The translations under genes were made by a program, and so were the position numbers. 63,769 bases of DNA from an uncultured Ardenticatenia bacterium. GTDB lineage: Bacteria > Chloroflexota > Anaerolineae > 4572-78 > NAK82. Every line of letters begins with the position of its first letter. Position 1 is the first letter of the stretch. This document shows positions 60,562 through 63,769 of the stretch, piece after piece. The notes beneath the pieces were generated by a model. That model was not told the DNA's origin. It saw nothing but the letters and a program-made list of their open reading frames with translations, and made no database searches. Location: the NCBI GenBank assembly GCA_937127125.1, contig CAKZLO010000044.1, forward strand, positions 1 to 63,769. The letters run 5' to 3'.

Positions 60562-60619
60562 GAACATTTGTGCATATAGAACATTTGTTCTTGACAGGCG
60601 CGCTGTTATGTGCTATGAT
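60562..60619 (+). promoter_or_regulatory. Promoter under tandem LexA-like boxes
   Basis: TTGACA (60591-60596), 17 bases and TATGAT (60614-60619) form a near-consensus promoter. Two related boxes precede it: GAACATTTGTTC (60579-60590), a perfect GAAC-N4-GTTC palindrome that abuts the -35, and GAACATTTGTGC (60562-60573). The starts are 17 bases apart. This class of palindrome is bound by LexA in Gram-positive bacteria, so SOS control is likely. Confidence 0.68.
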
Positions 60620-60701: not shown

Positions 60702-61379
60702 ATGCAAACATCCACTGAATTTGCCGAAACTGCCACCTGCACCATCAACACCAACGTGATGTCATTTGTGAACTGGATCAAAGAACACACCTTTATCAGC
60801 TTCATGCAGCGCATCACGGCCTGGGAAGAACGCAGCGACCTCGTCTTCCCGAGCGGCGACCTGCCCCCCTTCCTGCTGCCCTGTAACCGTGACAACGTGC
60901 GCGCGATGGGCCGCTGGACGGTCGTCGAGCTGTTCGTGGGCGAGCTGTACTACGACGAGGAAATGGACCGGTTGCGGGTGCGCCCGCTGGAAGAGATCGA
61001 GGGTGAATCCGTGTGTGGCGTGGCTTTCGAACTGCTGCCGGTAGGGACGGATCGGCTGAAGGTGCGCGTGTGTTGCGACCGACCCGATATGCCGTCCGTC
61101 ATGATGGAGTGGCGAGCTCTGCTGACGGCAGTGGCGGAGACGTGGCCCGAGGCGGAGGATCAGCTGCGTCCATACCTGCGATGGACGTTGAGAGAGAGCG
61201 TGCGCCAGCGCTTCGAGCTCTACCGCACCATCAGGCTGCTCCATCCCGAATGGGGCTATGCCCGCATCGCCGCCGAGGCCAACCGCTGGGATAGGAGCAA
61301 CACTCACTCGGCGTACACCGTCCGCAAAGCCTACCGCTCCATAAGCGAGAAGTGGAGACGCTACCCGCGCATCCGCTGA
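60702..61379 (+). CDS. Unknown protein with C-terminal helix-turn-helix-like segment
   Basis: A 225-residue protein with no family I can name. The N-terminal 140 residues are mixed alpha/beta with several Cys and acidic patches (ELYYDEEMDRLRVRPLEEIE). The last 60 residues, with YRTIRLLHPEWGYARIAAEA and then SAYTVRKAYRS, resemble a DNA-binding helix-turn-helix ending in a basic tail (EKWRRYPRIR). AAGGAGG lies six bases before ATG 60702. The LexA-like promoter directly upstream and a helicase-like gene downstream suggest a replication or mobile-element role. It starts a plus-strand gene group unlike its neighbours. Confidence 0.75.
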   Translation: MQTSTEFAETATCTINTNVMSFVNWIKEHTFISFMQRITAWEERSDLVFPSGDLPPFLLPCNRDNVRAMGRWTVVELFVGELYYDEEMDRLRVRPLEEIEGESVCGVAFELLPVGTDRLKVRVCCDRPDMPSVMMEWRALLTAVAETWPEAEDQLRPYLRWTLRESVRQRFELYRTIRLLHPEWGYARIAAEANRWDRSNTHSAYTVRKAYRSISEKWRRYPRIR

Positions 61380-61500
61380 ACAAGGGTGGTGGCGATGGCC
61401 TCACACCCCTCAGCACACTCCGCTACGGGTGGTGGGCAATGCTCGAGGCCGCCTATGAGACATCATCTACAGGACACCATTATGCATCTGGAGGAAGAAG

Positions 61501-61812
61501 ATGGACCGCAAACTCCTACGCAGCACCTTACAAGCACATGCCGAGATCCTCGAGATGGTCGCCGCACAAGAGGGCGAACCGATCGCCGTCATTGTGGAGC
61601 GGCTCATCCGTGCCGTGGCCGAACGGCGCAGGCTGCCGTCATCCCGGCCATCCCACATCGCGCCGGAGATATATGCCGAGAAAAGGCATAAGATGGATGC
61701 CGAGAAAACGTATGAGATGGATGCCGAGAAAACGTATGAGATGGATGCCGAGGAGACGCACGAGATAGATGCCGTTGACCGGGCTGACTGGGAGGATGGT
61801 GAGGATGTCTGA
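61501..61812 (+). CDS. Small repeat-containing protein
   Basis: A 103-residue protein. The N-terminal half (DRKLLRSTLQAHAEILEMVA, then EPIAVIVERLIRAVAERRRL) looks like a helical ribbon-type dimer or coiled coil. The C-terminal half is four octapeptide repeats of the DAEKTYEM kind and a very acidic end. GGAGG lies six bases before the ATG. The repeats arise from a 24-bp tandem DNA repeat. Function unknown; it is between the two replication-module genes. Confidence 0.68.
   Translation: MDRKLLRSTLQAHAEILEMVAAQEGEPIAVIVERLIRAVAERRRLPSSRPSHIAPEIYAEKRHKMDAEKTYEMDAEKTYEMDAEETHEIDAVDRADWEDGEDV
61673..61768 (+). repeat. 24-bp tandem repeat inside the coding region, four units
   Basis: ATGCCGAG recurs at 61673, 61697, 61721 and 61745 and, changed, at 61769, exactly 24 bases apart. 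The middle units are identical; the first and last have diverged. The repeat keeps the reading frame. Confidence 0.9.
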
Positions 61813-61949
61813 CCCGACGACGCCCACCTGCTGCACCGTCGTGCCTGTGCGACACCATCCCACCGACATGCGCGCTGCCGCAGTCGCTTTTGTCCAACCA
61901 TATTATGTCCTCTGGCGCTGCCGAGAACGCTGGGAATGGAGGATGTGCT

Positions 61950-63008
61950 ATGGCGTACGATCCCGTCATATGGTGCCAACGTCTTGAAGCGCTGCTCGCC
62001 GAGCTGCCCGACGAGAGAACCCGGCACAGAGCGCGTGCCGCCATTCATCGCACCCTGTTGCTGTCGGCCAATCCGGACGGGGAGAGCCTGGCGGTGCGCA
62101 GTGTCGAGGCGCTCCTCACGGAAAGGTTCCCGGAGATGGTGTGGATCGTGCCGGAGATCCTGCCCAGCGGGTTGGCGTTGCTGGCGGGGCGTCCTAAGGT
62201 GGGCAAAAGCTGGCTGGCGCTGCAATTTGCGCAGGCGGTGGTCACCGGCGGCGTCGTGTTGGATCAGCCGGTGCCGCAGGGATCCATTCTCTACGTCGCC
62301 CTGGAGGATGCGCCGCGGCGGCTGCAAGAGCGTATGCAAAAGCAAGGCTGGCCGCTCGACCACAGTTCCCACTGCATCACCCTCGGCGATTTTCCCGGCA
62401 CGCTCGAGTCCGGTGCGAGCGAGCAACTGGCGAGGCTGATGGAAGACTGCCACTATCGGCTGGTGGTCATCGACACTTTCTCACGCGCCACGCGCTGCGA
62501 CCAAAACGACGTGAGCGCAGTCACCGCCGTGTTGGCACCGTTGCAGGAGATGGCACACCAGCATAATGCCTGTGTGTTGCTGCTGGATCACCACAACAAG
62601 CTGGCCAGCGAAGACGCCATCCGCGACATCCTGGGCAGCACGGCCAAAGGCGCCATGTGCGACACCGTCATGGGCCTCTACCGCAAGTATGGTGAGACGA
62701 CGGCACGGCTGGTGGTCATCGGACGCGACATCGAAGAGAGGAAGTTCAACCTGGAATTCGACTGCACGCTGGGCTTCTGGCAATCGTGTGCGGAGGCCAT
62801 CGCTGCGCAGTTGAGCCAGCGCGACCAGGAGATCGTTGATGTGCTCCAGCAACTGTCCATGGCCACGGCCAAGCAGATCGCCGAAGCGGTGCGTCAGGAT
62901 GTCAGCAACACCAAGCGACGCCTGTATAACCTGGTGCAGGCAGGTGCGTTACAGCGCAAGCCTGTAGGCAAGACGTATGTGTACTATCTGCCCGATGGTG
63001 TCGATTGA
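61950..63008 (+). CDS. RepA/AAA_25-type ATPase with C-terminal winged helix
   Basis: A 352-residue RecA-fold ATPase. Walker A is GRPKVGKSW (about 80-88), Walker B RLVVIDTFSRA, and the sensor motif VLLLDHHNK, as in plasmid RepA (RSF1010-type) hexameric helicases and related AAA_25 proteins. The last 70 residues (LSMATAKQIAEAVRQDVSNT, with RRLYNLVQAGALQR) form a winged helix. ATG 61950 is chosen for GGAGG seven bases upstream. Directly downstream lies an array of short repeats, which suits a replication initiator with iterons. Confidence 0.85.
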   Translation: MAYDPVIWCQRLEALLAELPDERTRHRARAAIHRTLLLSANPDGESLAVRSVEALLTERFPEMVWIVPEILPSGLALLAGRPKVGKSWLALQFAQAVVTGGVVLDQPVPQGSILYVALEDAPRRLQERMQKQGWPLDHSSHCITLGDFPGTLESGASEQLARLMEDCHYRLVVIDTFSRATRCDQNDVSAVTAVLAPLQEMAHQHNACVLLLDHHNKLASEDAIRDILGSTAKGAMCDTVMGLYRKYGETTARLVVIGRDIEERKFNLEFDCTLGFWQSCAEAIAAQLSQRDQEIVDVLQQLSMATAKQIAEAVRQDVSNTKRRLYNLVQAGALQRKPVGKTYVYYLPDGVD

Positions 63009-63049
63009 GGCTGCTATGTGCTATGCACCGGCACACAATGTGTGTAATC

Positions 63050-63300
63050 GACACTTTTTACACACATTACACACTTTACACACTTTACACACTTTACACA
63101 CTTACACACTTTACACACTTACACACTTTACACACTTTACACACTTTACACACTTTACACAGTTTACACACTTACACACTTTACACACATTACACACTTT
63201 ACACACATTACACACTTTACACACTTACACACTTTACACACTTTACACAGTTTACACACTTGACACACTTGACACACATAACACATGACACACATACAGA
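63050..63300 (+). repeat. Tandem array of the 9-bp repeat ACACTTTAC
   Basis: About 25 copies of ACACTTTAC run head to tail, with 8-bp variants lacking one T and occasional ACAGTTTAC or ACACATTAC units. The array decays towards 63300 into TGACACAC units. It begins about 45 bases after the ATPase stop. Reading frames through it encode simple His-Thr-Leu repeats and are not genes. Confidence 0.9.
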
Positions 63301-63401
63301 CACAGGTTACATAAATGACACACATGAAACGAATCACACGATCATGTGGATTTCCCTGGCTGGGGTGATGCTGCCTGAATCAGGGCCATGCGCATTTATC
63401 C

Positions 63402-63649
63402 GAGCGGCGCGCGTCCGTAGGGGCGCAATTGCATTGCGCCCGCACTCGCACACGTCGGCCATCCGAGCCGCGCGCGTCAGCCAGCGGCAATATTGGGGCA
63501 CTGCCAAATCGAGCACGCACGCGTCAGCCAGCGGCCGAATCAGAGCATGCACGTGTGAGCAGGTGTATGGATTGCGTTCCTGGATCAGAGCACCCGCATC
63601 AATCTGAGCGGCGCGCGTCCGTAGGGGCGCAATTGCATTGCGCCCGCAC
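63402..63649. repeat. Two identical 44-bp repeats with a palindromic core, plus related shorter repeats
   Basis: Positions 63402-63445 and 63606-63649 are identical. Each starts GAGCGGCGCGCGTCCG and has the hairpin GGGCGCAA-TTGCA-TTGCGCCC. Between them the 15-mer GCGTCAGCCAGCGGC occurs at 63474 and 63521. The palindrome resembles the REP-like elements common in Chloroflexota and Cyanobacteria. No gene lies in 63301-63691. Confidence 0.85.
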
Positions 63650-63691
63650 ACACACCGCTCCCTCACGGTCGCGGCTCGGACTCAGTTTTAT

Positions 63692-63769
63692 GTGTGTAAA
63701 CTGTGTCAAGTATGTAAGTGTGTAAAGTGTGTAATGTGTGTAACTGTGTAATGTGTGTAAAGTGTGTAA
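63692..63769 (-). repeat. Inverted array of the same 9-bp repeat at the window end
   Basis: GTGTAAAGT and variants (GTGTAATGT, GTGTAACT) fill the last 78 bases. They are the reverse complement of the array at 63050-63300, so the two arrays face each other across the 44-bp repeat region. The array runs off the window. Confidence 0.88.

Follow-up and report, generated by a model that had tools for sequence, protein, structure and literature searches.

The window, that is, the whole 63,769-bp stretch of DNA analyzed here, ends in a helicase gene, a dense array of short repeats, and the beginning of an inverted copy of that array. This raises the question of whether the segment is a plasmid-type replication module and, if so, how its origin would work. 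The assembly has 85 contigs, and the window, which is contig C44, stops at position 63769 because the contig ends there. The last 77 bp of C44 are identical to the first 77 bp of contig C8, with no longer overlap, as expected where an assembler halts at a repeat; the cut is thus an assembly effect and not a biological boundary. The adjacency of C44 and C8 is supported by this overlap, which lies within repeats, and by the conservation of gene order, since homologous helicase and primase genes are neighbors in eight other genomes and so support the join independently. The order across the two contigs is LexA-type box and promoter, ORF A, ORF B, helicase gene, arm 1, spacer, inverted arm 2, primase gene, and tRNA-Cys, with the following features:

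60562–60590, forward strand: two LexA-type boxes, an imperfect one (GAACATTTGTGC, 60562–60573) and a perfect one (GAACATTTGTTC, 60579–60590), read from the sequence and from direct repeat D13.
60591–60619, forward strand: sigma-70-like promoter, TTGACA-17-TATGAT, read from the sequence, abutting the LexA box.
60702–61379, forward strand: ORF A, 225 aa, without a Pfam, plasmid or PDB relative.
61501–61812, forward strand: ORF B, 103 aa, from the ORF list, with an in-frame 24-bp repeat (61666–61774, from the repeat search) at its 3' end.
61950–63008, forward strand: repA-like helicase gene, with an AAA_25/RecA-type domain and a C-terminal winged helix.
62817–62987, forward strand: winged-helix domain in the AlphaFold model, residues 310–366 of the 372-aa ORF.
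63055–63298, forward strand: iteron arm 1, 27 core units of the TTTACACAC type, outer edge GACACTTTTTACACAC, inner edge degenerate.
63286–63398, forward strand: element-specific block at the inner edge, a candidate unwinding region, matching only contig C15 elsewhere in the assembly.
63399–63688, no strand assigned: REP-like repeats, with many matches on contigs C12, C18, C21, C22, C24, C25, and C78.
63689–63769, reverse strand: first part of the inverted iteron arm 2, continuing at C8:78–225 through the 77-bp overlap.
C8:284–1243, forward strand, outside the window: primase gene.
C8:1277–1348, reverse strand, outside the window: tRNA-Cys.

The 372-aa helicase ORF was called from a TTG at 61890, and an ATG with a ribosome-binding site lies at 61950. 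The protein matched Pfam AAA_25 (E 2.7e-31), and its sole sequence match in the PDB was RepA of RSF1010 (1g8y, E 1.1e-7). The AlphaFold model had a mean pLDDT of 86.9, and the top Foldseek matches included 1g8y, 1nlf, and 1olo. The winged helix was modeled as helix 310–322, strand 324–326, helices 327–334 and 338–350, and strands 355–359 and 362–366, the whole block with a pLDDT of 89–97. A sequence-only reading of this DNA had proposed a RepA-type ATPase with a winged helix, and domain, PDB match and fold all agree with it. The protein encoded beyond arm 2 contains a CHC2 zinc ribbon and a Toprim domain, as in DnaG-type primases.

The same reading had placed an SOS-like promoter upstream, which held: GAACATTTGTTC abuts TTGACA-17-TATGAT, and a like palindrome (AGAACACATGTTCG) precedes lexA of the window's own genome. 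Since a LexA box matching that of the host lexA overlaps the promoter region, SOS control of the helicase module is likely judging from the sequence, and replication would be raised after DNA damage. Other LexA-type palindromes of this genome were seen at C33:95727 (before lexA), C63:48052, and C12:9797. The proposal that the ORF at 60702–61379 encodes a DNA-binding protein could not be confirmed, as ORF A matched no Pfam family and had no relatives on plasmids, in the PDB, or in the homologous loci. ORF B gave no Pfam match either, and no counterpart of either ORF was detected in the homologous loci searched. The 24-bp tandem repeat of ORF B (61666–61774) encodes octapeptides of the MDAEKTYE type.

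Arm 1 begins 46 bp past the helicase stop codon, and its units follow one another in steps of 9 bp, occasionally 8. Its period-9 score was 119, compared with 24 or less in 1000 dinucleotide shuffles and 10.5 or less in all other stretches sampled from the 63-kb window. Arm 2 (63689 to C8:225) has 24 core units in all. Read from the outside inwards, both arms start with GACACTTTTTACACAC and finish in degenerate TTGACACA-type units, and the site is therefore symmetrical at both edges. The dense 9-bp array and its inverted copy, first noticed in the letters, are borne out by unit counts and by a score far above the shuffles. The spacer between the arms is approximately 390 bp long. Its GC content is 61% as a whole, owing to the REP-like repeats, and 38.5% at the inner edge (63250–63345). 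The REP-like repeats (cores GTAGGGGCGCAATTGCATTGCGCCC and CTCCCTCACGGTCGCGGCTC), which the sequence-only reading had also reported between the arrays, are indeed present there and dispersed over many contigs; an internal 61-bp repeat (D4) lies within them.

Only two loci in the whole assembly carry the array, the window and one decayed copy at the end of C15 and the start of C78, so that its interpretation as a widespread, genome-wide low-complexity repeat was rejected. The second copy (C15:101614–102384 and C78:1–57, loci L010 and L011 of genome G000) adjoins mutS. It has two arrays of the arm-1 type as well as REP-like repeats and an inverted arm, and it retains no more of the helicase gene than the last codons. 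The element-specific block at 63286–63398 occurs twice in it, and REP-like repeats sit in the origin spacer of both copies. It has the appearance of a partly duplicated orphan origin without helicase or primase.

Related helicases were sporadic in the class, being found in 21 of 396 genomes at E 1e-12, the window's genome included; strong matches were absent from the same-genus and same-family genomes searched, and a first search of viral contigs with the single helicase protein returned no relatives. A survey of public genomes and viral contigs gave 151 homologue loci, some of them near relatives, so that the counts below are not fully independent. Among the 84 windows with clear repeats right after the helicase, the best period was 9 in 52, 18 in nine, and 27 in two, and in control windows from the same loci it was 9 in 7 of 1,680. 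The period-9 score exceeded every control of its own locus at 100 of the 151 loci and reached the threshold at 65, a distinct period-9 signal being missing from about a third. An earlier set of 33 homologue loci gave a like picture. When 65 loci with clear arrays, drawn from both samples, were searched for a facing inverted arm, one was detected in 58 (p<=0.01) and not in seven. The unit sequences differ almost everywhere, and the inverted copies usually stand before or after the direct repeats. A TAAC/GTTA core was nevertheless enriched (16 of 63, 4.9 expected). The homologues belong to Chloroflexota, Bacillota, Acidobacteria, Alphaproteobacteria, Armatimonadetes, and other groups. Common to the family are the helicase, the winged helix, and the facing 9-bp arrays; the attached primases vary, some being DnaG-like and encoded by a gene of their own, others being Prim-Pol domains fused to the helicase. 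An RSF1010-type RepA (L084) had AAA_25 only, without a winged helix, and no 9-bp array was present behind it.

The layout also occurs on a natural circular plasmid, the 8,291-bp pATHE01, with six copies of ATTCACTCT and three of the inverted GAGTGAACG. These facing arrays (L081, 1737–1912) lie within the 3' part of a 718-aa Prim-Pol/helicase ORF and encode IHSIHS, so that origin and protein tail would overlap in this plasmid. In the cumulative GC skew of pATHE01 the array falls in a broad minimum, which is not informative. Identity of pATHE01 with pBAS2, a 3.7-kb vector plasmid of C. bescii with RepL, was rejected, as the size matches pBAL (8.3 kb); the vector data on pBAS2, a different plasmid, do not bear on the pATHE01 origin. 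Other helicase homologues have genes for tyrosine integrases (L052, L055) or large serine recombinases (L058, L062, L070) as their neighbors.

Since 9 bp correspond to three codons, the arrays could be the coding sequence of tripeptide-repeat helicase tails that expand by slippage. As in pATHE01, the 3' end of the helicase ORF contains the array at 32 of the 65 loci, and L203 may be such a case. At the other 33 loci and in the window, however, the array lies past the stop codon, the 8-bp steps of the window array break any reading frame, and the inverted arms are left unexplained. This explanation is extremely improbable, and a coding repeat was rejected for the window array.

We regard the segment as the probable replication module of an integrated mobile element, consisting of a RepA-type hexameric helicase, an origin of facing iterons of approximately 9 bp, and a DnaG-like primase. 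This reading is based on the likeness of the helicase to RSF1010 RepA, the primase past the arrays, and the occurrence of a like layout on a natural plasmid and beside recombinases, which together also support the plasmid-type module with iterons proposed from the sequence alone. The segment may be capable of autonomous replication. In such a module, the C-terminal winged helix of the helicase would bind the 9-bp iterons, which would make initiator and helicase one protein. The opposite orientation of the arms would set helicase rings face to face across the inner block, the block would melt between them, and the facing layout would bring two helicases onto the DNA in opposite senses; the neighboring primase would then prime the exposed strands.

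That the unit sequence drifts while the pitch stays constant agrees with coevolution between a binding protein and its sites, and the enriched TAAC/GTTA core agrees with recognition having a common ancestry. The same layout, in different letters, stands behind related helicases in many phyla and looks like a shared way of marking where replication starts. There is about an even chance, in our estimation, that these helicases represent an origin class crossing phyla, in which winged-helix RepA-type helicases load themselves on facing 9-bp arrays, pitch and layout being kept while the site sequence drifts and each element has its own specificity. The pitch of such a class would reflect the geometry of helicase subunits placed side by side on duplex DNA. 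The covariation between winged helix and iterons was weak (Mantel rho about 0.15, 26–64 of 1000 permutations), and the ATPase domain correlated with the iterons more strongly in one strand sense, which leaves the winged helix a candidate binding domain. The homologue loci without a distinct period-9 signal, about a third, and a period that seems to be 12 bp in two cyanobacterial relatives also count against the facing-iteron reading.

Short tandem repeats in two clusters are also known from plasmid centromeres, and the arrays could be a partition site of this type, with a ParR/ParB-like protein as their binder and a role in segregation and not in initiation. ORF B could, speculatively, be a small DNA-binding protein of this kind. 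Against this, the arrays stand behind the helicase gene in one phylum after another, and no co-conserved binder other than the helicase was seen, as no counterpart of ORF A or ORF B was detected at the homologous loci searched. We find a partition site very unlikely.

A different kind of origin is known from the archaeal plasmid pRN1, where a 100-bp stem-loop 3' of the rep gene varies in sequence while its fold is kept, and where Rep has a C-terminal winged helix (PMC4234260). The window resembles pRN1 in having the origin just 3' of a winged-helix helicase and in a layout that persists as the sequence diverges. Its arms are likewise complementary and variable in sequence, and they might pair into a long hairpin or cruciform in which the repeats are incidental. 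A stem, however, does not need a strict periodicity of approximately 9 bp; the order and number of units are not the same in the two arms of the window, which can be aligned with each other only with several gaps; the spacer is as long as approximately 390 bp; and the seven loci mentioned above have no detectable inverted arm. A stem-loop origin is unlikely for these reasons, and pRN1, unlike the window, has no iterons (PMC4234260). The origin of facing iterons proposed here also has likenesses to the alpha protein of phage P4, a single polypeptide that is both initiator and helicase and has a winged helix that binds iterons (PMC4234260). The same functions would be united in the window protein, where iteron binding is predicted. 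P4 alpha contains the primase as well, whereas primase and helicase are separate genes in the window.

IncQ replicons such as RSF1010 have a separate RepC initiator, iterons of 20–22 bp, a RepB' primase acting with ssiA/ssiB, and an oriV. The window shares with them a RepA-type hexameric helicase, indicated by the PDB match (E 1.1e-7) and the fold, whose nearest solved relative is RSF1010 RepA (1g8y/1nlf/1olo), and a self-contained set of helicase, primase, and iterons. In contrast with RSF1010, its units are 9 bp long and stand in two facing arrays, the helicase itself bears the winged helix, and the primase is DnaG-like, with CHC2 zinc ribbon and Toprim, and not a RepB'. Since neither RepB' nor a RepC-like ORF was found in the module (ORFs A and B being Pfam-negative), the module is not an IncQ replicon.

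In phage-inducible chromosomal islands (PICI/SaPI), the origin lies directly 3' of the initiator gene; two sets of short iterons stand there on either side of a possible melting region, and the module, in the order pri-rep-ori, includes a primase gene (PMC6092414). In the window, too, two iteron sets directly follow the initiator gene on its 3' side, and a primase gene belongs to the module. PICI-type origins have an AT-rich region between the two sets; in the window, the GC content is 38.5% at the inner edge and 61% over the whole spacer with its REP-like repeats. The window differs from PICI in a helicase of the RecA/RSF1010-RepA class, in gene order, in the 9-bp pitch with facing arms of up to 27 units, and in the distribution of its family over plasmids and integrative elements of many phyla. 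The family is a second lineage with a PICI-like two-set plan, from which it departs in helicase class and in the order of its genes. The sequence-only reading had found an origin with two facing arrays unfamiliar; this doubt is partly resolved, as facing arrays are the rule in the helicase family and a two-set origin has been described for PICI (PMC6092414). No description of 9-bp iterons for RepA-type helicases was found in the literature searched, which left out most subscription journals, and the facing 9-bp-array origin of these helicases appears to be so far undescribed.

The integrated status of the window module is less certain than its nature as a replication module. An integrated plasmid had been suggested; homologous modules elsewhere have recombinases, and an integrase, an att repeat, and an empty site were not found here. 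The 3' end of tRNA-Cys has no att duplication, the left side included, and an empty site was not demonstrable in same-genus and same-family genomes, where the flanking genes lie apart and rearranged (G002, G004). Among the ORFs from 60.5 kb to C8:1243, no integrase, att, divergent regulators, or phage interference or packaging genes were recognized, which also sets the window apart from PICI as an element. The segment might be a domesticated or dead remnant of an old integration that is no longer excised and whose origin is silent or serves the host. The difference from the mobile-element reading, with which this one overlaps, lies in present activity only. Besides the missing integrase and att repeat, the decayed second copy with the last repA codons beside mutS at the end of C15 and the REP-like repeats within the spacer point to a remnant, but both the helicase and the primase ORF are intact, as is the promoter, and the two arms are long and of almost equal size. 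We consider a remnant possible, though somewhat doubtful.

If the self-loading origin class is real, the origins of many plasmids, integrative elements, and prophages could be located from sequence without a conserved motif, by searching for facing repeats of 9-bp period just after a winged-helix RepA-type helicase gene. A single protein that recognizes and unwinds its origin would be a simple system in which the loading of a replicative helicase could be tested directly, and candidate replicons would become available for phyla such as Chloroflexota, for which, to our knowledge, few replicating vectors exist. On two cyanobacterial plasmids (L086, L091), the repeats after relatives of the helicase seem to have a period nearer 12 bp (e.g. 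ATTGGACAAACC) and may represent a second pitch class.
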